A stretch of DNA of 62,280 nucleotides, from assembly GCF_900163755.1 (NCBI RefSeq), contig NZ_FUKI01000105.1, forward strand, positions 1-62,280, given 5' to 3'. Position numbers and translations under genes: made by a program. Below are positions 21,027-43,491 of the stretch, piece after piece. Every line of letters starts with the position of its first letter. The first letter of the stretch is position 1. Below the pieces are notes generated by a model, which had not been told where the DNA came from, did not search any database, and saw only the letters and a program-made list of their open reading frames with translations. Origin of the DNA: Crenothrix polyspora (GTDB lineage: Bacteria > Pseudomonadota > Gammaproteobacteria > Methylococcales > Methylomonadaceae).

Positions 21027-21926
21027 TTAATTTATAGCCAAACCACTCATAATTACTCGGCCTGCATCTGTAGCGGGTATCGGAGCCCAAGTGTCTTTGC
21101 CGGTTAGCCAACCAGTATGCCTGTGCCAAAGTAGATCACCTTTGGCGGTTATGGCATAAATAATGCCATCGCCACCGGTGAATACTTGTCGATAACCTTG
21201 CCAGTTATAGCCGACCACGCTGTGTACACCGGCATTAACCCAATTATCGGTGCCGGTTAAGCGGCCGTCGTGTCTGTGCCAACGTAAACGACCAGATGGC
21301 ATAATAGAATAAATAACGCCATTGCCGCCGGAAAATACCTTGAGTACGCCTACCCAGCCTTTGCTAACCTGCTTACCACTGTCGGCTGTCCATTTGGCAG
21401 TGCCATCAAGCCAGCCTGTGTGGCGAAACCAGAGCATTTTTCCATCGGTTGTTATGGCGTAAATAATGCCATCACCACCTGAAAAAACATGGCTGTATTT
21501 ATTCCAGCCGTTGCCGATGATTGATAATTTATTGCCGTTAGTCCAAACTTGGCTGCCGTTAAATCGACCGTCATGGCGCGACCAGAGTAATTGACCTTTA
21601 TTGTTTATAGTGTAAATGATGCCATCGTCACCTGAAAACATTTTGGTGTTAAGTAGATTTTTGCTGGTTGCTTTGTCGCCTACAACTTTAGATGCGCCAA
21701 AATTGACCCAGCTGTCTGCGCCGGACATGCGACCCGTGTGTTGCAGCCAGTGCAATGTACCGTTTTTGGTCGTGACGTAAATGTCACCATCGCCATCGGC
21801 AAATGCGGCATAAGCAGGTTGAATAGCGTGTGCCGGTAAGGTTAATCCACTTAAACACATAAACATGCATAATAAGAATGGCGTAGCTTTGTTACAGCGA
21901 TTGATCAAAAAATAAATAGATTTCAT
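21027..21926 (-). CDS. Secreted tachylectin-like beta-propeller protein, copy A
   Basis: A 299-residue exported protein. The signal region ends SGLTLPAHA. The mature part is about six imperfect repeats of about 45 residues, each with a pattern like FSGGDGIIYAITTDGKMLWF followed by RHTGWLDG...W. This matches the tachylectin-2 type five- or six-bladed propeller, whose blades bind N-acetylated sugars in known lectins. A sugar-binding role at the cell surface or outside the cell is likely but unproven. A paralog of equal length follows upstream on the same strand, 235 bases away. Confidence 0.8.
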   Translation of the reverse strand: MKSIYFLINRCNKATPFLLCMFMCLSGLTLPAHAIQPAYAAFADGDGDIYVTTKNGTLHWLQHTGRMSGADSWVNFGASKVVGDKATSKNLLNTKMFSGDDGIIYTINNKGQLLWSRHDGRFNGSQVWTNGNKLSIIGNGWNKYSHVFSGGDGIIYAITTDGKMLWFRHTGWLDGTAKWTADSGKQVSKGWVGVLKVFSGGNGVIYSIMPSGRLRWHRHDGRLTGTDNWVNAGVHSVVGYNWQGYRQVFTGGDGIIYAITAKGDLLWHRHTGWLTGKDTWAPIPATDAGRVIMSGLAIN

Positions 21927-22161: not shown

Positions 22162-23055
22162 CTAACGTAAGGTTTGGCCTGCTGCCACAACCCTACCAGA
22201 ATTCATGGCTGGAGCAGGTGTCCAAGATTCTGCACCGGTTAACCAGCCGGCATGTCGATGCCAAACAAAGTCACCGTTAGCGGTAGTGCCATAGATAATG
22301 CCATCACCGCTGGAGAACACTTGGTGAAAGTTTTGCCAGTTAAAACCTATGGTTCTTTGCGTACCGTTATATGTCCAGTTATTAGCGCCTGTTAATCGGC
22401 CAAGATGCCTGTGCCAGCGCAGTCGTCCATCTTTGAAGATGGAATAAATGATGCCATCGCCACCGGAGAATATTTTAAGTGTTCCCTGCCAGCCTTTACT
22501 GATTTGTTTACCACTGTCATTTGCCCATGCGTTGGAGCCATCTTGCCAGCCGGTATGTCGAAACCAGTGCATTTTACCTGTGTTGGTAATGGCATAAATA
22601 ACACCATCGCCGCCGGCAAAAATATGTTGATAATTTTGCCAACCGTTATTGATTACCGTCATTTTATCACGGTTAATCCATTGCTGGTTGTCAGGAAATT
22701 TAGTGTCATAGCGAGACCATAATAATTGCCCAGCACTGTCAACCATGTAAATAACCCCATCGGTACTGGGAATAACTTTGGTTGTGAACCAGTCATTTAA
22801 GATAGCCATACTGCCTACGATTATTGGTTTTTGGCTAGTGGCTAACAGCGTGCCAACCATGCGATCATTATGTCGAAACCAGCGTAGCTTGCCATCATTG
22901 GCAATAGTGTAAATGTCGCCTTGGCGGTCGCCAAATGCCGCATAAGAAGATTGGCCAGCATGAGCCGGTGAGATAAAAGCAATCAGGTAGAAAAATAGTA
23001 GCAAGAGTGAGGCGACCTTGGCGTTAGCGTCGCTCGAATTGTTTGGGTGTTTCAT
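22162..23055 (-). CDS. Secreted tachylectin-like beta-propeller protein, copy B
   Basis: A 297-residue paralog of copy A with the same architecture. The signal peptide ends FISPAHAGQS, then about six blades follow the FAGGDGVIYAITNTGKMHWF, RHTGW pattern. Blade order and length agree with copy A along the whole protein, so the pair arose by tandem duplication. The first two blades are the most divergent. Each gene has its own A/T-rich upstream region, so they are probably transcribed separately. Confidence 0.8.
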   Translation of the reverse strand: MKHPNNSSDANAKVASLLLLFFYLIAFISPAHAGQSSYAAFGDRQGDIYTIANDGKLRWFRHNDRMVGTLLATSQKPIIVGSMAILNDWFTTKVIPSTDGVIYMVDSAGQLLWSRYDTKFPDNQQWINRDKMTVINNGWQNYQHIFAGGDGVIYAITNTGKMHWFRHTGWQDGSNAWANDSGKQISKGWQGTLKIFSGGDGIIYSIFKDGRLRWHRHLGRLTGANNWTYNGTQRTIGFNWQNFHQVFSSGDGIIYGTTANGDFVWHRHAGWLTGAESWTPAPAMNSGRVVAAGQTLR

Positions 23056-34399: not shown

Positions 34400-35296
34400 T
34401 TAACAGCGCAATGACCCACCCGTATTACCGTGTACATCCACCCACAGATACGGTAAACCCAGGCTTTTTAGCCATGCAGGGCCTTGTTCTTCTTTAAGCA
34501 TGGCGATAGTGGAAGCGCTGCCTGCCACCACACAAAAATCGCCGACTACGCTAACCGATGCCAAATGGCGTACCGGCCAGCCGGTTTTAGGGTTGAGCAC
34601 ATGGCCGTAACGTATGCCCTTGATTTCAATACAGCGTTCGTAATCGCCACTGCTGGCCAAGCCACCTTTACGCAAGGCGAGGGTGTGCATTACTGCGTCT
34701 TTGTCGCGTGGATGGCGAATGCCCACCCGCCACGGCTCTCCGTCAGCACGCGGGCCAATGATTTTAATATCACCGCCTAAATTGATTACGCCGTGGTGTA
34801 CACCGGCAGCCCAACACAAACTGGCGACACGATCCACAGCGTATTCTTTGACTACGCCGCCAAAATCAATTTCCATACCGGCGAGCGGGAAGTTTAATAC
34901 GGGCGCTTGCCAGCTCAGCTTATGCCAACCGACTTTAATCAGTAAGGCTTCAATCTCTTGGGCGTTGGGTAATTGCTGGGTATTAAAGCGCCAGGCTTTG
35001 CGTAAAATACCGGAGCTAATATCGAATAAACCATCGCTTTGCTGATAACAGGCGCTGGCATAATTGAGCAAGCCTGCGGTTTCTTCATCAACGCTAATTG
35101 AACCACCCACCGCTGCAACACGGTTAATCTCACTTAAAAAACTGTCGGCGCGATAACGTGAATAGCGTTGCTCTAAACGCTCTATATCGGCAATAGCCAC
35201 GCTGGCAACGTGTTCTGCGTGGCTGTGCGTTACAGCAAACAGCTGTATCTCACAGGGTGAACCCATTGCATTAAAAGTACGCTGGTAAAATATCAT
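34400..35296 (-). CDS. apbE: FAD:protein FMN transferase (ApbE family)
   Basis: Transfers FMN from FAD to a Thr or Ser of extracytoplasmic proteins. The start is the ATG at 35296 (MIFYQRTFNAMGSPCEIQLF), with GATAGGG upstream, not the longer frame that runs into the previous gene. Family motifs are RYRADSFLSEINR, MEIDFGGVVKEYAVDRVA, VINLGGDIKIIGP, EPWRVGIRHPRD, LASSGDYERCIEIKG and HVLNPKTGWPV. The usual C-terminal Ala-Asp-Ala-x-Ser-Thr reads AGSASTIAML: the metal-binding Asp is replaced by Gly. No lipoprotein signal is seen. It ends a minus-strand cluster; the two DUF3570 genes upstream encode its likely substrates. Confidence 0.92.
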   Translation of the reverse strand: MIFYQRTFNAMGSPCEIQLFAVTHSHAEHVASVAIADIERLEQRYSRYRADSFLSEINRVAAVGGSISVDEETAGLLNYASACYQQSDGLFDISSGILRKAWRFNTQQLPNAQEIEALLIKVGWHKLSWQAPVLNFPLAGMEIDFGGVVKEYAVDRVASLCWAAGVHHGVINLGGDIKIIGPRADGEPWRVGIRHPRDKDAVMHTLALRKGGLASSGDYERCIEIKGIRYGHVLNPKTGWPVRHLASVSVVGDFCVVAGSASTIAMLKEEQGPAWLKSLGLPYLWVDVHGNTGGSLRC

Positions 35297-35318
35297 TACC
35301 CTATCGCCAGTAGTAACA

Positions 35319-37901
35319 TCAGAACATATAACTCCAGTTTGCCGATAGTGCGCCATCGCGCTCTACTTGGTAGCCATTCACATCGTCATGTACCGGCTGT
35401 AACCACTCAAAACTCAGGCGATTGCCTTGTAAATCGCCACTGGGTACGCTGGCGCTTACGCCAAAACCGACATCCCAAAAACGGCCACCGTAGTTAGCGG
35501 TCGCATCTTCTGTGCCGCCCCAGGAACGTGGCGTGCCATCAAAGCTTTCGCCGCCATCGCCAAGATGTGCGCCATTAAATTCGCCTTTAACGGTACCTTG
35601 TACGCTATAAACACCGCGCAAAGACGCTGCTAGCCAGCTGTTCAGCTGATAACCGCCCCAGGCTGTGGCCTGAAATAAATCACCGAAAGCAAAGCCAGAG
35701 GTATTTTTGCTGGCTAAACGTTTAGTACCACTGAGTTGAGCACCCCACGACCACTTGTCGGCTTCTCCGGTATAGGTTAATGCCGGTTTGAAATCCCAGG
35801 TACCACTGCCCAGCTGCATACCGTAATGAATAAATACATCACCCAGTTTATGCGCGTCTCTGAGTTTTATACCCACATCGCCGGTAGGTACACTGATGCC
35901 TAAGCTCAGGTTGATACGATGGCCTTTGCTAGCGAAGAGTTTGCCAATGGCATAAAGTCCGGTATCGCCTATACCACCGGTACTGTGACCACCGCTGTGT
36001 TGATGCGGATTAGGGTCTTCATCAGCACCGGTAACTTCGCGCATGTTCATTGACATATCAACAAACTGCGGCATTAACATGAGTGTCAGCCAATCGGTCG
36101 GTGCAACCATAAGATCAAGCATGTGCATGTGCATGGTCATATAGGTGGGTGTACTGGCGCACGGGTGATTTTTGCAGCCCAAACTGGCGATGTCCAAATC
36201 ACGGGCGACACTGTCGCCGTGCAAGCTAGCACCGGCCTGATTCGCGTACATATAGCGATAGCCGACCATGACATCACCGGCCTTGTGCAGAATATGGTCA
36301 AACATAATACCGGCAGGCGCATGAGCGCCATGTGTGCTGTGTCCTGTGTGATGACTGTGTTCGCTGTGCGTACTGGCCAGCGCATCCAAATTAACTTTCA
36401 TAGCTGCATTGGCGACATAGTAATTAAAGTCGGCATAACTGCCTTCGCCGCCACCGCCCAATTTTAACGCACCGGCATGGCTGTAATATTCAAAGCCGAC
36501 TTCAAAATTAACGCCTTTGGCAAATTGTTTGCTGAGGGTTATGCCGCCGCTGAGTGTGCCATAGGCGGATAAGCGGTGATCGCTGGCATAATTGCTGGGC
36601 AACGTGCTGGCATCTAGCCTGCCATTGTCGGGTAAGCGCTGCTGGGTTAAAAATAAGGGCTGATAAAAATCCGCTGCACTTTGCGAGTAATACCTGAATT
36701 TAGGCGTTATTGTCCAGCCGTTACTGAGTGGCTGCACCCAATCGACATCGAAGGTGTGTGCGTTAATACCCCAGTCGTCATGAAAAAACCGGTAATCAAC
36801 ATGCACAGCGGCATCTAGGCCGTCGATGTGCTGTACGTAACGCAGATTTTCTGTCCATTGATTGCGCTCATCCGGTCGTTGCTCACGCAATACCGCATAC
36901 GTGCCATTGTAATTGCCATCAGGGCGCACGGCGCTAGGATCAACAAATGCAAAGGTGACGGCCTTATAAGGGTTTTCCATAAAGCCGCTGCTGTAGGTGT
37001 AGCCCACATTGAAATTGACCAGCGCATTTTTATTAATAATCTGGGTTAAGCCCAGGTGGGTTGACCAGTCTGTTTTATTGGCAATCAACACATTAGCATC
37101 CACATCGCTGTGAATCAGCTTATCCAGCTGGGAATTGTTGCTGCTGTAATAGGTCTGCGCATCATGATCCAATAACGCCTGGGTATGGCTGTTGGTATAG
37201 CTGACGCTGGCACTGACGCTGGTTAGTTTTTGATTAAAATCCCAGCGGCCACCGACATTGCCAAAACGCGATTCGTAATCATTTTCAATAGAAAGGCCGC
37301 CGCCAATATGCACAGCGGCGGTGTCCCAATCGTAACTGATTTTAAAATCACTTTGCTTGCGGGTTTCTGGCGAGGCATAAGACAGGGTATGCACCAGACG
37401 TGTATCGCTACCGATGACTGTGGAATCAGGATTGGCGGGATCACTGAGGCTAACGGGGTTAAAGTGTTTATCAAAAATGCCAGCGCTTGCACCAATTAAC
37501 GGTGATGCGCCAGAGTGAATATCGTTATCAACACGCAGGCGGTTACCTTGGCGTACCACCGGTGCTGTGGTAATGGGCGTAGCGCCCGACCACGTATCTT
37601 GGGTGTAATTAAACGCGAATTTAATGCGCTCAGACAGTTTAATGTTGGCATTACCTTGCAAGGTGTCGACTTCAATGGGGTTAAACTGACTTTTGGCGTT
37701 AAACAGCTGGCGCTTGCCTTCTTGATAGTGGCCGTATTGAAAGCTGACTTCATCATCGCCCGCATACGCGGGGAGTGCAATAAGGCCAGGCAACAGTAAC
37801 GCAGCGGCCATTAGGGCGTGCAGCGACAAATTTGCGGAGCGCTTGTTAAGCTGTCGTTTGAGAAGCGTTTTGCCAACCGGCATAAAGTGTCGGCACGGCA
37901 T
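35319..37901 (-). CDS. DUF3570 outer-membrane barrel with ApbE flavinylation motif, copy B
   Basis: An 860-residue exported protein; the signal region is LMAAALLLPGLIALPAYA. The N-terminal 480 or so residues fit DUF3570: strand-rich, ending in aromatic residues. At D102-T108 it has DTWSGATP, an exact D-x-x-S-G-A-T, the known FMN-attachment consensus. A His-rich stretch lies at about residues 510-527 (HSEHSHHTGHSTHGAH) and a Met/His-rich one at about 585-617 (MTMHMHMLDLM). The C-terminal portion has further transmembrane strands and ends LSANWSYMF, typical of outer-membrane barrels. It is a tandem paralog of the next gene upstream. Its ATG overlaps that gene's stop (TAATG). Confidence 0.85.
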   Translation of the reverse strand: MPCRHFMPVGKTLLKRQLNKRSANLSLHALMAAALLLPGLIALPAYAGDDEVSFQYGHYQEGKRQLFNAKSQFNPIEVDTLQGNANIKLSERIKFAFNYTQDTWSGATPITTAPVVRQGNRLRVDNDIHSGASPLIGASAGIFDKHFNPVSLSDPANPDSTVIGSDTRLVHTLSYASPETRKQSDFKISYDWDTAAVHIGGGLSIENDYESRFGNVGGRWDFNQKLTSVSASVSYTNSHTQALLDHDAQTYYSSNNSQLDKLIHSDVDANVLIANKTDWSTHLGLTQIINKNALVNFNVGYTYSSGFMENPYKAVTFAFVDPSAVRPDGNYNGTYAVLREQRPDERNQWTENLRYVQHIDGLDAAVHVDYRFFHDDWGINAHTFDVDWVQPLSNGWTITPKFRYYSQSAADFYQPLFLTQQRLPDNGRLDASTLPSNYASDHRLSAYGTLSGGITLSKQFAKGVNFEVGFEYYSHAGALKLGGGGEGSYADFNYYVANAAMKVNLDALASTHSEHSHHTGHSTHGAHAPAGIMFDHILHKAGDVMVGYRYMYANQAGASLHGDSVARDLDIASLGCKNHPCASTPTYMTMHMHMLDLMVAPTDWLTLMLMPQFVDMSMNMREVTGADEDPNPHQHSGGHSTGGIGDTGLYAIGKLFASKGHRINLSLGISVPTGDVGIKLRDAHKLGDVFIHYGMQLGSGTWDFKPALTYTGEADKWSWGAQLSGTKRLASKNTSGFAFGDLFQATAWGGYQLNSWLAASLRGVYSVQGTVKGEFNGAHLGDGGESFDGTPRSWGGTEDATANYGGRFWDVGFGVSASVPSGDLQGNRLSFEWLQPVHDDVNGYQVERDGALSANWSYMF
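37578..37598 (-). other. Predicted FMN-attachment site, DUF3570 copy B
   Basis: Codons for Asp-Thr-Trp-Ser-Gly-Ala-Thr; the final Thr (T108) would carry FMN. The match to the ApbE target consensus Dxx(S/T)GA(T/S) is seen directly in sequence; attachment itself is inferred. Confidence 0.75.
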
Positions 37902-40537
37902 TAGAACATATAGTTCCAGCTGGCCGATAGTGCGCCATCGCGCTCTACTTGGTAGCCATTAACATCATCCTCTACTGGTTGCAACCATTCAAAACTCAAG
38001 CGATTACCTTGTAAATCACCATTGGGTACTACTGCACTTAAGCCAAAACCGACATCCCAGAAGCGTCCGCCATAATTGCCGGTATAATCTTGAGAGCCGC
38101 CCCAAGGTCGCTCTTCCGCGCTATCACCAAAGTGCGCGTTATTAAATTCTCCTTTAACTTTGCCCTGTACCGTGTAAACACCGCGCACCGATGCCGATAG
38201 CCAAGGGGTTAGGTTATAACCACTCCAGGCCGTTGCCTGAAATATATCGCCAAAAGCAAAACCAGACGCATTCTTGCTTTCCAGACGTTTAGTACCGCTG
38301 GCTTGTGCGCCCCATGACCAGTTATTTAACGCGCCCGTGTAGGTGAGTGCGGGTTTAAAGTCCCAAGTACCGCTGCCTAGCTGCATACCGTAATGGATGA
38401 ACAAGCCCCCTAAACCGTGGGTATCGCGCAGTTTTATACCGACATCGCCGGTGGGCGCACTGATGCCTAAGCTGAGGTTAATCTGATGCCCTTGTTTGTT
38501 GAACAAGTTGCTAATCGCGTACAGGCCGGTATCACCGACCCCACCTGTGTTATGGCCTCCCGAATGGCTGTGGGCATTAGGATCTTCTGGTGCGCCGTTA
38601 AGTTCGCGGGTGCTCATGTTCATATCGACAAACTGCGGCATGAGCATTAAGGTAAGCCAATCGCTAGGTGCAAACATGAGGTCAAGCATGTGCATGTGCA
38701 TGGTCATATAACTTGGTGCGCTGCTACAAGTGTTATTGGCGCAGCCGTGCTGAATAATAGCCGAATCTTTAGCAATACTGTTACCGTGTAATATATTGCC
38801 TGATTGATCGCTGTACATATACCGATAGCCTACCATGACATCACCGGCGTTATGCAGGACATGATCAAACATAACCCCAGCGGGCGCTGCATGTTGGTGT
38901 GTCGTGTGTTGGTGGTGTTTTGCGTGATGATTTGATTCGCCGAGTGATGTGGCAAGGCTATCCAGATTCACTTTCATACCGGCATTGGCCATATAGTAAT
39001 TAAAGTCGGCATAAGCACCTTCACCGCCACCGTCTAATTTTAATGCACCGGCATGGCTATAATATTCAAAGCCGACTTCAAAATTAACCCCTTTAGCAAA
39101 TTGCTTGCTGAGTGTAACGCCACCGCTGAGTGCGCCATAACCGGATAAGCGTTGATCGCTGGAATAATTGCTGGGCAAGCTGCGTGGGTTTAACGCATTG
39201 TATTTTTTGGCGGTATCAAGGCCATCTGCGCCTAAAGCATGAGAGCCAGGTAAACCTTGTTTAGACAAAAATACCGGCTGGTAAAAATCCGCTGCACTTT
39301 GCGAGTAATAGCGGAATTTAGGGGTAATCGTCCAGCCGTCACCCAATGGTTGCCCCCAGGTTAGCTCAAAGGTATGGGCGTTAATACCCCAATCATCAGA
39401 GGAAAACCGGTAATCTACATGCAATGCTGCGTCCAGCGGTGCAATATGTTGCACGTAGCTTAAACTGGGTGTCCATTGATTGCGTTCGTTGGGGCGTTGC
39501 TCAAACAATGCCGCGTAATTACCATTAAGATTTTTATCAAGGCGATGCTGATTGTCTGAGTTAGGATCGACAAATATAAAAGTAACTGCCTTATAGGGGT
39601 TTTCCATAAAGCCGCTGCTGTAGGTATAGCCTAAGCCTATATTGATCAGTGCATGTTTATTGATAATTTGCGTTAAACCTACATGCGTCGCCCAATCTTC
39701 ACGGTCGCCGCTTAGTGTATGACCACCGTCGCTAGTGTTTTGAATTTGATCTTTAAAGGGGAAGGGTTTGTAATGGTAGTAATCATAAGCTGCGTGATCT
39801 AGCAGCGCTTGAGTATGGCTGTTGGTATAACTAACCCCAGCACTGACACTGGTGTGTTTTTTGTTAAAATCCCAGCGTCCGGCCAGATTGCCAAAGCGCG
39901 ACTCATAATCATTTTCGATAGAAATGCCGCCACCAATATCTAACGCTGCATTGTCAAAGTCGTAGCTGAGCTTAAAGTCACCTTGCTTACGTGTTTCTGG
40001 TGACGCATAGGATAGGGTGTGTGCCAAACGGGTATCTTTACCTATCACGTTAGCGCTGGGGTCACCTGGATTATCGGTTTTAAGTGGATTAAAATTTTTA
40101 TCAAAAACACCGGGTGTCGCCTGTATCAAAGGCGACGCGCCGGTATTAATAGTCTCGCCTTTCCATCGATTGCCATTTCGCGCGAGCGGTGCCGTGGTAA
40201 TGGGCGTTGCACCCGACCAGGTATCTTGGGTGTAATTAAACGCAAACCGAATGCGATCCGCCAACTTGATTTTGGCACTGCCTTGTAAGCTGTCTACTTC
40301 AATTGGGTTAAGTGTGCTTTTGGAATCAAATAACTGCCGCTTACCTTCCTGATAATGGCTGTATTGAAAGCTAACTTCTTCATCGGCGGCAAAAACAGGG
40401 GGTGCTATTAACCCAGGTAATGCTAAGGCGGCAGCGGTTAAAGCCTGTAACGATGCACTGGTTGATCTTACTGATTTTGTTTTTGTAATACTTAGCCTAG
40501 TAACAGCCACATCCACCGCCTTCCGCACTATTTCCAC
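37901..40537 (-). CDS. DUF3570 outer-membrane barrel with ApbE flavinylation motif, copy A
   Basis: An 878-residue paralog of copy B, collinear along its length. The frame begins at a GTG at 40537, but a GTG at 40510 with GGAAGG eight bases upstream is a likely true start; both overlap the end of the DUF4266 gene. The signal region is LTAAALALPGLIAPPVFA. D105-T111 is DTWSGAT. A His-rich stretch (NHHAKHHQHTTHQH) lies at about 530-550 and MTMHMHMLDLM at about 609-642. Cysteines occur in HGCANNTCSS. The C-terminus is LSASWNYMF. The role is inferred: flavin- and metal-carrying outer-membrane protein. Confidence 0.85.
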   Translation of the reverse strand: MEIVRKAVDVAVTRLSITKTKSVRSTSASLQALTAAALALPGLIAPPVFAADEEVSFQYSHYQEGKRQLFDSKSTLNPIEVDSLQGSAKIKLADRIRFAFNYTQDTWSGATPITTAPLARNGNRWKGETINTGASPLIQATPGVFDKNFNPLKTDNPGDPSANVIGKDTRLAHTLSYASPETRKQGDFKLSYDFDNAALDIGGGISIENDYESRFGNLAGRWDFNKKHTSVSAGVSYTNSHTQALLDHAAYDYYHYKPFPFKDQIQNTSDGGHTLSGDREDWATHVGLTQIINKHALINIGLGYTYSSGFMENPYKAVTFIFVDPNSDNQHRLDKNLNGNYAALFEQRPNERNQWTPSLSYVQHIAPLDAALHVDYRFSSDDWGINAHTFELTWGQPLGDGWTITPKFRYYSQSAADFYQPVFLSKQGLPGSHALGADGLDTAKKYNALNPRSLPSNYSSDQRLSGYGALSGGVTLSKQFAKGVNFEVGFEYYSHAGALKLDGGGEGAYADFNYYMANAGMKVNLDSLATSLGESNHHAKHHQHTTHQHAAPAGVMFDHVLHNAGDVMVGYRYMYSDQSGNILHGNSIAKDSAIIQHGCANNTCSSAPSYMTMHMHMLDLMFAPSDWLTLMLMPQFVDMNMSTRELNGAPEDPNAHSHSGGHNTGGVGDTGLYAISNLFNKQGHQINLSLGISAPTGDVGIKLRDTHGLGGLFIHYGMQLGSGTWDFKPALTYTGALNNWSWGAQASGTKRLESKNASGFAFGDIFQATAWSGYNLTPWLSASVRGVYTVQGKVKGEFNNAHFGDSAEERPWGGSQDYTGNYGGRFWDVGFGLSAVVPNGDLQGNRLSFEWLQPVEDDVNGYQVERDGALSASWNYMF
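40205..40225 (-). other. Predicted FMN-attachment site, DUF3570 copy A
   Basis: Codons for Asp-Thr-Trp-Ser-Gly-Ala-Thr; T111 would be flavinylated. The amino acids are identical in copy B while some third codon positions differ, consistent with selection on the protein motif. Confidence 0.75.
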
Positions 40538-40721
40538 CTGCCGCGCCTTCGCGGCTATTATAATTATGTTGACTCAAACTGCTGTGCAAAACGCTTGCAT
40601 CCAAGGCCATGTGTGGCTTGGCTAAGTTGCCGCGTTCCCAGGGTTGTACGCTGGTGCAGCCCAGTATACCAAAACAGCTAATACACAATAATAACACGGG
40701 CAGATGGTGTCTCATTTTCAT
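40497..40721 (-). CDS. DUF4266 small lipoprotein with C-terminal CGCY tail
   Basis: A 74-residue lipoprotein. The signal sequence MKMRHHLPVLLLCISCFGIL ends in the lipobox ILGC. The mature part begins CTSVQPWERGNLAKPHMALD, the DUF4266 signature, continues through LHSSLSQHNYNSREGAAGGN and ends SAEGGGCGCY. The C-terminal Cys-Gly-Cys could bind metal or form a redox disulfide. AAGGAAACCT precedes the ATG. It overlaps the following DUF3570 gene. A small partner of DUF3570 with no known biochemical role. Confidence 0.85.
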   Translation of the reverse strand: MKMRHHLPVLLLCISCFGILGCTSVQPWERGNLAKPHMALDASVLHSSLSQHNYNSREGAAGGNSAEGGGCGCY

Positions 40722-40768: not shown

Positions 40769-41269
40769 TTACTCTGCTAATAATTGCGCGACTTTGTCTT
40801 CAAGGTCTTGGGTTTCACCGGCACGAAAGCCCAAATGTACGTAACGAATAATGCCTTTTTTATCAATTAGAAAAGTAGATGGCATAGCCTCAACGCCAAA
40901 GCCCGTTGCACACTGTTTGCTCGCATCTGCTGCTACGCTAAATTGTGCCGGATGGCTTTCGATAAAGGCTTTTGCGTCGTCGACATTTTCATCGACATTA
41001 ATGCCAATAATCTGCAAGCCCTTATCCTTATAAGTGTCATTTAATACATTTAGATACGGAAACGATTTAGCACACGATCCACACCAAGAAGCCCAAAAGT
41101 CTACATACACCACTTTACCTTTAAATTGCTGTAAGTCGTAAGTTTGGCCGCCGTTTAATGTGCTTAACACACACGCAGGTAATGGTTTATTGATGTCTTC
41201 GGCATACACTGTGAAGGCTGCTGTTAGCGTTAAAAAAATGCCAAATCTTGTTAATATCCGTGCAATCAT
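40769..41269 (-). CDS. TlpA-type thioredoxin-like exported protein
   Basis: A 166-residue periplasmic thioredoxin-fold protein. It has a signal peptide (LTRFGIFLTLTAAFTVYA) and the active site YVDFWASWCGSCAKSFPYLN, with a WCGSC motif. The cis-Pro segment reads GVEAMPSTFLIDKKGIIRYV. Such proteins reduce disulfides in partners such as cytochromes or copper proteins. Its place just before DUF4266 and DUF3570 suggests it keeps Cys residues of the cluster, for example the CGCY tail, reduced. Confidence 0.9.
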   Translation of the reverse strand: MIARILTRFGIFLTLTAAFTVYAEDINKPLPACVLSTLNGGQTYDLQQFKGKVVYVDFWASWCGSCAKSFPYLNVLNDTYKDKGLQIIGINVDENVDDAKAFIESHPAQFSVAADASKQCATGFGVEAMPSTFLIDKKGIIRYVHLGFRAGETQDLEDKVAQLLAE

Positions 41270-41417: not shown

Positions 41418-41861
41418 TCAGTTATTTTGTAGCTGTGTAGGCTCAGGTTGTTCGGTATGTGCCCCTGTTAGGGTTTGGCAATGTACATCGAGTACGTAAT
41501 TAATAGCGCCAGCGCCACTTTTATCGACTAAAACGGTATAAACGCCATCGCCTGCAATGGTTTTTGCCAATGGGCTATAAGCGGCATTGCCACCGACAGC
41601 ATCTGTGCTGTGAGAGGCCACCTTGCCTTTAAAAGCTTGTACACTCACCAGCGGTGTTTTTTTTGCCGCTTTTACACGAGTGACCAGTTGCGCGGTTTTA
41701 CCCGCAGCATTGGGTTTGCAAGTAGTTTGAAAAGCATCAACTGCACCCGCAGCAGCACCAAGTGAATCAGGAATGGTATGTGCTAAAGCCATGTCAGCAT
41801 AATTTAGCGCTGCTAAAAGTGCAGCAGTGGTGATAGTGTTTTGTAAAGTTAACTTTTTCAT
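41418..41861 (-). CDS. Small secreted protein with predicted mature N-terminal His, copy 2
   Basis: A 147-residue protein. The signal peptide MKKLTLQNTITTAALLAALN continues to ADMALA, and cleavage would leave HTIPDSLG, so His would be residue 1. Two Cys (FQTTCKPN and VHCQT) could pair in a disulfide. Strands such as TPLVSVQAFKGKVAS and GVYTVLVDKSGAGAINYVLD suggest a beta sandwich. AAGGAGAAGCAAC lies before the ATG. It is a paralog of the next gene upstream. No named family is recognised. The N-terminal His recalls histidine-brace copper proteins, which is inference. Confidence 0.7.
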   Translation of the reverse strand: MKKLTLQNTITTAALLAALNYADMALAHTIPDSLGAAAGAVDAFQTTCKPNAAGKTAQLVTRVKAAKKTPLVSVQAFKGKVASHSTDAVGGNAAYSPLAKTIAGDGVYTVLVDKSGAGAINYVLDVHCQTLTGAHTEQPEPTQLQNN

Positions 41862-41954: not shown

Positions 41955-42404
41955 TTATTGATTTTGCGTTTGCTTTGGTTCGGTTTGGCCGCTGTGCGTA
42001 GCTTTTGCGGTTTGACAATGAGTTTCGAGTACATAGTTCATCATACCTGCACCCGTTTTAGATACTGAAACGGTATAAGCGCCTTCGCCACCGGCTTTAA
42101 TAATGCCATCTGGGCTGTATACCGCATCACCGTTTATTTTATCGGTTGTGTTAGACGCTAACTTGCCTTTAATCACTTTAACACTGACTAAAGGGCCTTT
42201 TTTGGTAACACCTTTAACTTTAGTCAAAAATTTGCCTGTTGCACCAGCGGCATTTTTTGAGCATGTTGTTGTAAAGACATCAACTGCGCTCGCTTTTATG
42301 CCCAGTGAACCAGGAACAGTGTGCGCTGAAGCAAGGCCAGTAAAACTCATGGCTGCCAAAAGCGCTGTTGTGCTAATAATGCGCTGTAATACTAATTTTT
42401 TCAT
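41955..42404 (-). CDS. Small secreted protein with predicted mature N-terminal His, copy 1
   Basis: A 149-residue paralog of copy 2. The ATG at 42404 (MKKLVLQRIISTTALLAAMS) aligns with it, and the ATG four codons upstream is less likely. Cleavage after LASA gives mature HTVPGSLG. Conserved features are His1, FTTTCSKN, KKGPLVSVKVIKGKLASNTT, GEGAYTVSVSKTGAGMMNY and ETHCQT. It has no recognised family. Tandem duplication with copy 2 is clear from the leader, the ribosome binding site region and the C-terminal Gln-rich tails. Confidence 0.7.
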   Translation of the reverse strand: MKKLVLQRIISTTALLAAMSFTGLASAHTVPGSLGIKASAVDVFTTTCSKNAAGATGKFLTKVKGVTKKGPLVSVKVIKGKLASNTTDKINGDAVYSPDGIIKAGGEGAYTVSVSKTGAGMMNYVLETHCQTAKATHSGQTEPKQTQNQ

Positions 42405-42570
42405 GTTGTTTCTCATTACGTTAAAATTAACGCTAAATTAAAAAATACCCAGGTTTTTATCCTAAAGCCATCGGCATAAACAAACGAAAATTGTTATTTT
42501 CGTTTGTTTCTTTGATTTCCGTTATTCCAAAAAGCCAACGGAGAAGCTTTTATATTCGCTGGCTAAATGA

Positions 42571-43491
42571 TTACTGTGCTTTTTCCGTGCTTAGGGTTTC
42601 CAATTTTAATGCGGCTAAAGAACGCACGTTTTCATCTTTATCGTGCAGTGCCTGTTGTAATAAAGCGGTATTATTGCCTGCACTGTCCACCGCCATGATG
42701 CGTACTTCAACAGCGTCATCGTGCATAGCGGTTTGTAAAGCAGCTTCGGTGCCTTCTTCGTTGCGATGGGCAAAACTAGAGATGGCTTGTGCTCGCACAT
42801 CAGGATTGCTGTCAGATAACGCGGCTTCTAAGGTTGCTCTAATAGCAGGATCACCGGGTTTTTCGGCTAATAATCCCCCGATACCTTGGGCGCGTTCAGC
42901 AGGATCTTTCGATTGTGTCATTTTAAGCATGGCAGTGGTTTGTGCCGCCTCTTCAGCTTCTACATGGTTTTGTTGTTTGCGCAGCGCCTGTAATTGATCT
43001 TGTTGATTTAATACTGTTGTTTCGCAGTCTGCGGAGCTTACCGACGGCGAGATAGCCTCAAATTTTGCACCTAACACCCAAACTTCTTCCAGGGTGTTTT
43101 TAGGTGTATGCCACACCGTGTTATGTGGGTAACGGAAGATCAAGTCGGCTTTGTGGTTAAGTACACATTCCAAAATATGTCTTAAGGTTGCCCCTACGCA
43201 CGTTGCGGTAACACGGCCTTCGGGCAACACTGAATAATGAATGGGCACACCGGTGGTTTTGGTTATTTTATCAAGCACCTGTGCTAAAGGTGCTTGTCTG
43301 GCTTCTAATTGCAATGCTGTTGTTGTTTCTGTGGAGATGGTTAAGTTGACACTTGCATCACTAGCAAATACCACGCTAGATGTTATGTACAACACACACG
43401 CCAAACCCAGCTTAACTAACGTCTTAGTAGGTGGGCTGATTTTTGTCAATAAAGCAGGCTGATTATTTTTAAATAACATATTTTTTAACAA
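42571..43491 (-). CDS. Exported protein with STN-like and HEAT-repeat domains
   Basis: A 306-residue exported protein. After an N-terminal hydrophobic signal or anchor (LGLACVLYITSSVVFASDAS), residues about 50-115 resemble the secretin/TonB short N-terminal domain (LEARQAPLAQVLDKITKTTG, PIHYSVLPEGRVTATCVGAT). The C-terminal 110 residues form HEAT-like helical repeats (SNPDVRAQAISSFAHRNEEG, DAVEVRIMAVDSAGNNTALL, KDENVRSLAALKLETL). STN domains usually sense signals in TonB-dependent receptors; pairing with HEAT repeats suggests a scaffold. It starts the minus-strand cluster. Confidence 0.72.
   Translation of the reverse strand: MLKNMLFKNNQPALLTKISPPTKTLVKLGLACVLYITSSVVFASDASVNLTISTETTTALQLEARQAPLAQVLDKITKTTGVPIHYSVLPEGRVTATCVGATLRHILECVLNHKADLIFRYPHNTVWHTPKNTLEEVWVLGAKFEAISPSVSSADCETTVLNQQDQLQALRKQQNHVEAEEAAQTTAMLKMTQSKDPAERAQGIGGLLAEKPGDPAIRATLEAALSDSNPDVRAQAISSFAHRNEEGTEAALQTAMHDDAVEVRIMAVDSAGNNTALLQQALHDKDENVRSLAALKLETLSTEKAQ

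Follow-up and report, generated by a model that had tools for sequence, protein, structure and literature searches.

The closest described relatives of the gene cluster analysed here, which lies in a 62,280-nucleotide window (the whole stretch of DNA that was analysed) of the Crenothrix polyspora contig NZ_FUKI01000105.1 and encodes two DUF3570 proteins (copies A and B) together with an ApbE, are the flavinylation-associated clusters of Meheust et al. (2021; PMC8238504). ApbE attaches flavin mononucleotide (FMN) covalently to its targets, and Meheust et al. described 228 flavinylation-associated DUF3570 proteins with two conserved [S/T]GA[S/T] motifs. The DUF3570 protein of Chlorobium luteolum, which was found mostly in the insoluble pellet, was reported to be flavinylated in Escherichia coli by its cognate ApbE, and the flavin was abolished only when both serines were replaced. 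In these clusters ApbE and DUF3570 occur with a thioredoxin-like protein, a DUF4266 protein and DsbD, and in 316 of them DsbD is absent (PMC8238504).

A review (PMC12052999) gives the flavinylation motif as D-x-x-[S/T]-G-A-[S/T], of which seven residues can suffice, lists an aspartate as conserved in the catalytic centre of ApbE, and names Ser241, His257 and Asp285 as the catalytic residues of the Vibrio cholerae enzyme. According to the same source the majority of characterised ApbEs are secreted, and cytosolic ApbEs are known that have soluble partners. The available text of these two papers neither describes DUF3570 as an outer-membrane barrel nor mentions a signal-less ApbE accompanying it. 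A literature search on flavinylation, beta-barrels and the outer membrane, with most subscription papers lying outside its reach, showed no such report among the papers listed, and one on copper uptake and flavins found no paper.

A preliminary description of this DNA had proposed that copy B is a target of the neighbouring ApbE. As a rediscovery this was correct; as a new idea it was not, since DUF3570 flavinylation has been in print since 2021 (PMC8238504). The central point of that description is already published, and copies A and B are a long variant of a family of which one member is known to be flavinylated. What is new, within the searches made, is the predicted two-barrel form of the long variant, the likely outward position of its site and the divergence of its signal-less ApbE.

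Results

Flavinylation motifs and their conservation

Translation of the minus strand confirms that residues 102-108 of copy B read DTWSGAT (site 1; Table 1), as had been described, and the consensus that was cited for ApbE targets agrees with that of the review (PMC12052999). A second site in copy B, the same heptad in copy A and a second barrel (see below) had been overlooked. Both copies score above the PF12094 gathering cut-off of 25 bits and, like ApbE-associated DUF3570, contain two [S/T]GA[S/T] motifs. The pattern D..[ST]GA[ST] is present in 2 of the 52 non-overlapping window frames of at least 100 residues, and these two are the DUF3570 copies; shuffling copy B 20,000 times produced a match in 1.1% of the trials and more than one in 0.015%.

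Among 398 genomes sampled from the whole phylum, 29 contain PF12094, as do 86 of 151 relatives. When named genomes were scanned, 572 candidates were confirmed, and the best 80 of these, representing 78 distinct loci (79 with the window), were kept. Judged by their titles, the hosts of the best 78 loci comprise 59 methanotroph names, 13 Nitrosomonas, 1 Methylotenera and 5 named only as proteobacteria. The long form of DUF3570 was found in 77 of the 79 loci, the other two ending at a contig edge, and the thioredoxin-like protein, DUF4266, the long form and ApbE are all present in 45. The standard gene order was found, within set distance limits, in 39 of the 79, with many contigs ending inside the cluster. 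Plasmid searches for other phyla returned only Vibrio and Hymenobacter, and one of the two Hymenobacter records was inspected.

Alignment of 85 long forms bears out the motif, in that the D, W, G, A and final T of the heptad are kept in every sequence. Position 2 is T in 80, and position 4 is Ser in 64, Gly in 20 and Ala in one. At site 2 the Ala is found in 84 sequences and Ser or Thr in all 85. Ser occupies position 4 in 42 of the 46 long forms with an ApbE just downstream and in 17 of the 33 without one (excluding six cases at contig edges; Fisher P=1.3e-4, a value that is not corrected for kinship and is overstated because the sequences are related). In a wider set of DUF3570 proteins, the exact motif is carried by 17 of the 21 that have an ApbE no more than 4.5 kb away and by 3 of the 7 that lack such a neighbour.

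Some loci depart from the common pattern in other ways. Two relatives, G019 and G044, have 10 and 9 DUF3570 matches, an expansion of the family. The cluster L206 (G093) looks decayed, with a thioredoxin-like frame left and short overlapping frames that match DUF3570 and ApbE. On the Hymenobacter plasmid the ApbE is split over two frames (L168:4748-6111) and no Cys-x-Cys terminates the DUF4266-like frame, through either sequencing error or decay.

A signal-less ApbE subfamily

The preliminary description correctly placed an apbE gene next to copy B, and missed the absence from its product of both a signal peptide and the catalytic Asp. The interval of 22 bases that it gave between the two genes holds if ApbE starts at Met21 (35296), as in the relative at locus L070; with the longest frame the genes overlap by 38 bases. 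The window ApbE scores far above the PF02424 gathering cut-off of 25.6 bits (Table 1).

We compared two sets of ApbEs. The first consists of 65 proteins encoded in DUF3570 loci, of which 47 come from the window and the named loci, 17 from the phylum sample and one from a Vibrio plasmid. The second consists of 31 controls, namely the other, lipoprotein-like ApbE of the Crenothrix genome (L009) and the 30 ApbE loci that scored highest in 200 genomes of the phylum. Because they were chosen as the best profile scorers, the controls are biased to the conventional kind of ApbE. The position of the catalytic Asp is occupied by Gly in 65 of 65 DUF3570-locus ApbEs and by Asp in 31 of 31 controls, and the Gly of the usual KGY element is replaced by Glu in all 65 and kept in all 31. 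The catalytic Ser and His are retained in all 96 proteins. The Asp was equated with V. cholerae Asp285 by spacing, the residues of L009 being arranged as Ser-16-His-28-Asp, compared with 241-257-285.

A hydrophobic N-terminal extension was found in 2 of the 65 DUF3570-locus ApbEs and in 29 of the 31 controls. In both exceptional cases (L073 and L120) the longest ApbE frame extends upstream so far that it enters DUF3570. The window ApbE and its relatives start at the catalytic domain, and the window protein has neither a signal peptide nor a lipobox. In a quick tree the DUF3570-locus ApbEs and the controls fall on opposite sides of one branch (Shimodaira-Hasegawa-like approximate likelihood ratio support of 98), at which long branches meet. 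The apbE gene adjoins DUF3570 across the phylum. The motif, the cluster, the missing signal and the Asp-to-Gly and Gly-to-Glu differences are read from the sequences; our reading of them is that a carboxylate may have moved across the ApbE active site and that the enzyme would work in the cytosol.

Predicted structure of copy B and position of the site

AlphaFold2, applied to mature copy B with an 85-row alignment, gave a model with a predicted local distance difference test score of 88 and a predicted template modelling score of 0.82. The predicted fold is that of an outer-membrane barrel, in agreement with the preliminary description, and copy B is modelled as two barrels in one chain, which we read as having 16 and 12 strands, with a His-rich linker between them. 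With VIA-align, residues 1-456 match the BamA barrel (Z 21.7, root-mean-square deviation (rmsd) 3.6, 289 residues aligned), residues 1-459 the polysaccharide secretin 4y25 (Z 20.2) and residues 1-458 OmpG (Z 18.7). Residues 484-813 match the COG4313 chain 4rl8_C (Z 23.2, rmsd 2.7, 253 aligned) and residues 475-813 match FapF (Z 22.5). A single 28-strand barrel is unlikely on these models, because each half matches a closed barrel. The long forms, of 860 and 878 residues in the window, are in this respect unlike the short DUF3570 proteins of ~420 residues, since they carry the second barrel behind the PF12094 domain. Their C-terminal halves match no Pfam family at E values up to 10, and a search of PDB sequences with the long-form profile returned only FapF (E 0.18-0.3) and crystallins (0.76-0.77).

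In barrel 1, all seven turns on one side comprise 2-5 residues, and five of the eight loops on the other side vary widely in length, including the loop that carries the site, which extends from residue 58 to residue 89. Three long forms of 1081-1231 residues (L202-L204) have ~300-370 extra residues in the site loop, in an insertion that begins some 9-31 residues past DxY[ST]GAT. In outer-membrane barrels the long-loop side usually faces out, and by this rule the side of the site is taken to be outward. The parity of strand 3 turns D55, W57, G59 and T61 (mature numbering) towards the lumen. The target Thr108 would thus lie where strand 3 ends on the outer side of barrel 1, with its side chain turned to the lumen.

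In barrel 2, nine Met residues in two strands are kept in 95-100% of the 85 sequences, and M498 and M648 in all of them. The direction in which the Met side faces is ambiguous in our parity script, because Met scores as hydrophobic; the script assigns the Met side of strands 2 and 3 to the lipid, and D549 and L558/L560/L562 suggest the lumen.

Neighbouring genes and the copper question

Methanotrophs and nitrifiers are known for copper monooxygenases, for which they need copper, and patterns in the sequences suggested a copper role for the long form. All 77 DUF4266 frames in the surveyed loci end in CGC[YNF], and this Cys tail and the thioredoxin-like protein suggest a thiol relay to the flavin, resembling the one proposed by Meheust et al. 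for DsbD clusters (PMC8238504).

A family of small secreted proteins lies beside the operon in 66 of the 79 loci, with two copies in the window. His stands at column 1 in 62 of 73 aligned members, the cleavage site being a predicted one, and H1, H100 and H108 are all present in 57 of the 73, all absent in 10 and mixed in 6. With an N-terminal His and further His residues, these would be candidate histidine-brace proteins. Neither the two window copies nor the L076 copy matched Pfam. The family is modelled with high confidence as a beta-sandwich (predicted local distance difference test score 98), for which a fold search gave collagenase-type, subtilase and C2-like proteins as the best matches (Z up to 10.7), with no copper protein among the 50 matches listed.

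In the phylum sample the monooxygenase family PF02461 (AMO) exceeds its cut-off in 2 of 2 genomes with the long form and in 0 of the 27 other DUF3570 genomes; of the two, one is the Crenothrix genome that contains the window. We considered whether the long form tracks this monooxygenase within the order and rejected the idea: AMO is found in 51 of 59 long-form genomes (at least 59, counted by eye from frames of 840-1060 residues) and in 120 of 151 genomes overall.

A secreted family of ~300 residues (L084:2889-3779 and relatives; 48 members in 41 of the 79 loci) has a conserved predicted N-terminal His and conserved Cys, and no convincing Pfam or NCBIfam match was found in the 39 members scanned. 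The ~300-residue neighbour family was also tried as a DUF1775/YcnI copper chaperone and rejected, as 0 of 39 aligned members match at E values up to 0.1; one protein elsewhere in the genome (L007:9131-10027) matches DUF1775 with E 0.0018, below the family cut-off. A further secreted protein (window 42571-43491) belongs to a family found beside the operon in 39 of the 79 loci, and its L088 relative matches HEAT repeats.

The Crenothrix genome (G000, 3.92 Mb) contains 4 DUF3570, 2 ApbE and 3 DUF4266 matches. Its other two DUF3570 proteins are short (428 and 405 residues) and belong to clusters of the order thioredoxin-DUF4266-DUF3570-DsbD. Their motifs are DIVAGAS and DVVAGAS, and there is no ApbE within 4.5 kb of either. 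Adjoining these DsbD-linked clusters are two similar proteins with one CxxCH each (L007:3833-4747 and L008:2677-3573). The second ApbE (L009:7091-8131) has a hydrophobic N-terminus ending in Cys and was judged by eye to be lipoprotein-like; two FMN_bind matches are candidate substrates for it. Elsewhere in the window, two adjacent and similar repeat proteins (21027-21926 and 22162-23055) are probably secreted.

Table 1. Features of the DUF3570-ApbE cluster and its neighbours, in window coordinates
Feature	Position	Strand	Basis
ApbE, signal-less, probable start 35296	34400..35356	-	PF02424 247.1 bits, E 2.8e-73
ApbE Gly279, at position of V. cholerae catalytic Asp285	34520..34522	-	
ApbE Glu171, at Gly of usual KGY element	34844..34846	-	
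DUF3570 copy B, 860 aa, signal peptide ~1-47 (by eye)	35319..37901	-	PF12094 410.5 bits
Predicted barrel 2 of copy B, mature 497-813	35322..36272	-	model and VIA-align
Met-rich strands of barrel 2, mature 541-571	36048..36140	-	alignment of 85 sequences
His-rich linker, mature 459-496, partly low confidence	36273..36386	-	model
Predicted barrel 1 of copy B, mature 1-458	36387..37760	-	model and VIA-align
Copy B site 2, DIHSGAS, residues 127-133, predicted target S133 (mature S86)	37503..37523	-	
Copy B site 1, DTWSGAT, residues 102-108, predicted target T108 (mature T61)	37578..37598	-	
DUF3570 copy A, 878 aa in longest frame	37901..40537	-	PF12094 406.5 bits
Copy A site 2, TINTGAS (no Asp)	40133..40153	-	
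Copy A site 1, DTWSGAT, residues 105-111	40205..40225	-	
DUF4266 small lipoprotein, C-terminal GCGCY	40497..40721	-	PF14086 76.8 bits; lipobox by eye
Thioredoxin-like (Redoxin) protein	40769..41269	-	PF08534 104.9 bits
Small secreted protein copy 1, predicted N-terminal His	41418..41861	-	
Small secreted protein copy 2, predicted N-terminal His	41955..42416	-	

The genes of the cluster are read on the minus strand in the order thioredoxin-like protein, DUF4266 lipoprotein, DUF3570 copy A, DUF3570 copy B and ApbE.

Discussion

A model for flavinylation before export

With a confidence slightly better than even, we propose that in copies A and B FMN is bound covalently to the Thr of site 1 and probably also to the Ser of site 2, that flavinylation takes place in the cytosol before export, that the flavin comes to lie on the outer side and that it serves a role in copper. 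The cognate ApbE would attach FMN to the unfolded DUF3570 precursor. The cytosol is the most likely place for this step because that ApbE has no export signal, and modification of an unfolded chain fits because a motif of no more than seven residues can be enough and the mostly insoluble C. luteolum protein was flavinylated. The FMN-bearing precursor would then be exported and inserted in the outer membrane, which would place the flavin close to the outer end of barrel 1, on its lumenal side. Electrons would pass from the periplasmic thioredoxin-like protein to the Cys-x-Cys tail of DUF4266, from there to the flavin and finally to an acceptor on the surface of the cell. The purpose in methanotrophs and Nitrosomonas would be copper reduction and uptake, with the Met-rich barrel 2 as a metal path. 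Given the two-barrel form, the outward site and the signal-less ApbE, flavin is predicted on the precursor, and flavinylation probably precedes export. We infer the side and facing of the site, the order of modification and export, the electron route and the part played by copper. That all the elements hold at once (a signal-less ApbE subfamily with a relocated carboxylate, flavinylation of a barrel before export, FMN at the cell surface and a Met-lined conduit in which thiols feed a flavin for copper reduction and uptake) is, in our estimation, improbable.

Several points weigh against the proposal. No case in which the Sec system exports a chain with bound FMN is known to us. The flavin on the long form is predicted and the published measurement concerns the short form, and FMN transfer is likewise a prediction for the linked ApbEs, which lack the conserved catalytic Asp. 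Electrons from a periplasmic thiol would have to arrive at a flavin on the outer rim, a step for which the model does not account. Two loops of barrel 1 assigned to the outside are short and fixed (160-161 and 329-332), and a third (430-444) hardly varies. The ApbE frame of the Hymenobacter plasmid has a signal peptide, so that the signal-less trait may not reach the Bacteroidota, and the control ApbEs L190 and L200 have no hydrophobic extension, yet keep the Asp. There are exceptions to the motif beside ApbE, which read DTLTGSS (L152), ETMGGAS (L163), DFIGGGS (L205) and DYYSSAS (L168). Regarding copper, profile matches of the neighbouring genes include no recognised copper gene, within the order the long form is not clearly associated with the monooxygenase, and DUF3570 has a reported link to iron, the ferrous-iron transporter VIT1 being present in 25 clusters (PMC8238504).

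The lack of a recognised copper gene and the reported link of some clusters to iron also speak for a variant in which the protein and its chemistry are as proposed and the acceptor is iron or another oxidant instead of copper; we regard this as a real possibility, although we lean against it. The nine near-invariant Met residues of barrel 2 and the three-His set of the small neighbours argue for copper, as do the hosts found, methanotrophs and Nitrosomonas, which are known for copper monooxygenases. The place of modification might also differ from that proposed, the protein being flavinylated in the ordinary way in the periplasm after export, either by a lipoprotein ApbE encoded elsewhere or by the window ApbE through an unrecognised export route. 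The genome does encode a lipoprotein-type ApbE, its two short DUF3570 proteins have no ApbE nearby, and most characterised ApbEs are secreted (PMC12052999). We nevertheless consider this explanation unlikely, since the cluster keeps an ApbE of its own in 45 of 79 loci, none with a convincing signal peptide, and since the lipoprotein ApbE has other candidate substrates in the two FMN_bind proteins.

The signal-less ApbE may, on the other hand, no longer be an FMN transferase for DUF3570, being inactive or acting on free flavin adenine dinucleotide or on another cytosolic protein. The invariable Gly in place of the catalytic Asp is what such a loss would leave behind, but the Ser and His are as invariably kept, Glu appears at one fixed position in every member, and the gene stays beside DUF3570; a loss of this kind appears quite unlikely to us. 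Very unlikely, finally, is that the long form is not flavinylated and that its motif has been conserved for a structural role in the barrel rim. In favour of this reading, the D, W, G, A and T of the motif are invariant also in long forms without a nearby ApbE; the short relative, however, is flavinylated at such sites (PMC8238504), Ser is commoner at position 4 where an ApbE is adjacent, and two short forms without a nearby ApbE read D..SSAS.

Should the long form indeed be flavinylated before it is exported, the picture of ApbE as acting outside the cytosol on exported targets would have to be widened, and a chain with a bound flavin would have to pass through the export machinery. With a flavin on its outer side, the barrel would offer a way of moving electrons through the outer membrane that needs no haem. 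How ApbE works can be tested cleanly with the help of the Asp-to-Gly and Gly-to-Glu differences, and the copper link, if true, bears on the supply of copper to the monooxygenases of methanotrophs and nitrifiers.

Comparison with known systems

The present cluster shares with those of Meheust et al. (PMC8238504) the PF12094 domain, the two [S/T]GA[S/T] sites and the company of ApbE, a thioredoxin-like protein and DUF4266. It differs from them in the length of its DUF3570 proteins (860-878 residues, compared with ~420), in their predicted Met-rich second barrel, in the tandem copies and in the absence of DsbD from the cluster. The window ApbE retains the catalytic Ser and His of ordinary ApbEs (PF02424) and departs from them in having no signal peptide, a Gly at the position of Asp285 and a Glu in the KGY element. 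With the cytosolic ApbE of Klebsiella pneumoniae it has in common the absence of a signal peptide; the target of that enzyme is a soluble fumarate reductase (PMC12052999), whereas the partner in the window is predicted to be an exported outer-membrane protein. The MtrCAB conduit, an outer-membrane barrel with redox cofactors, provides the first Foldseek match to the model (chain 6r2q_B, E 9.3e-14), but the template modelling score is only 0.26-0.31 with an rmsd of 9.2 over 298 residues, and flavin and thiols would do here what is done there by haem. Lastly, the 12-stranded fold of the COG4313 channel (PMC4493636) and of FapF is common to residues 484-813 in the model of copy B, and barrel 2 differs from both in that it has no Pfam match, is rich in methionine and is fused behind another barrel.

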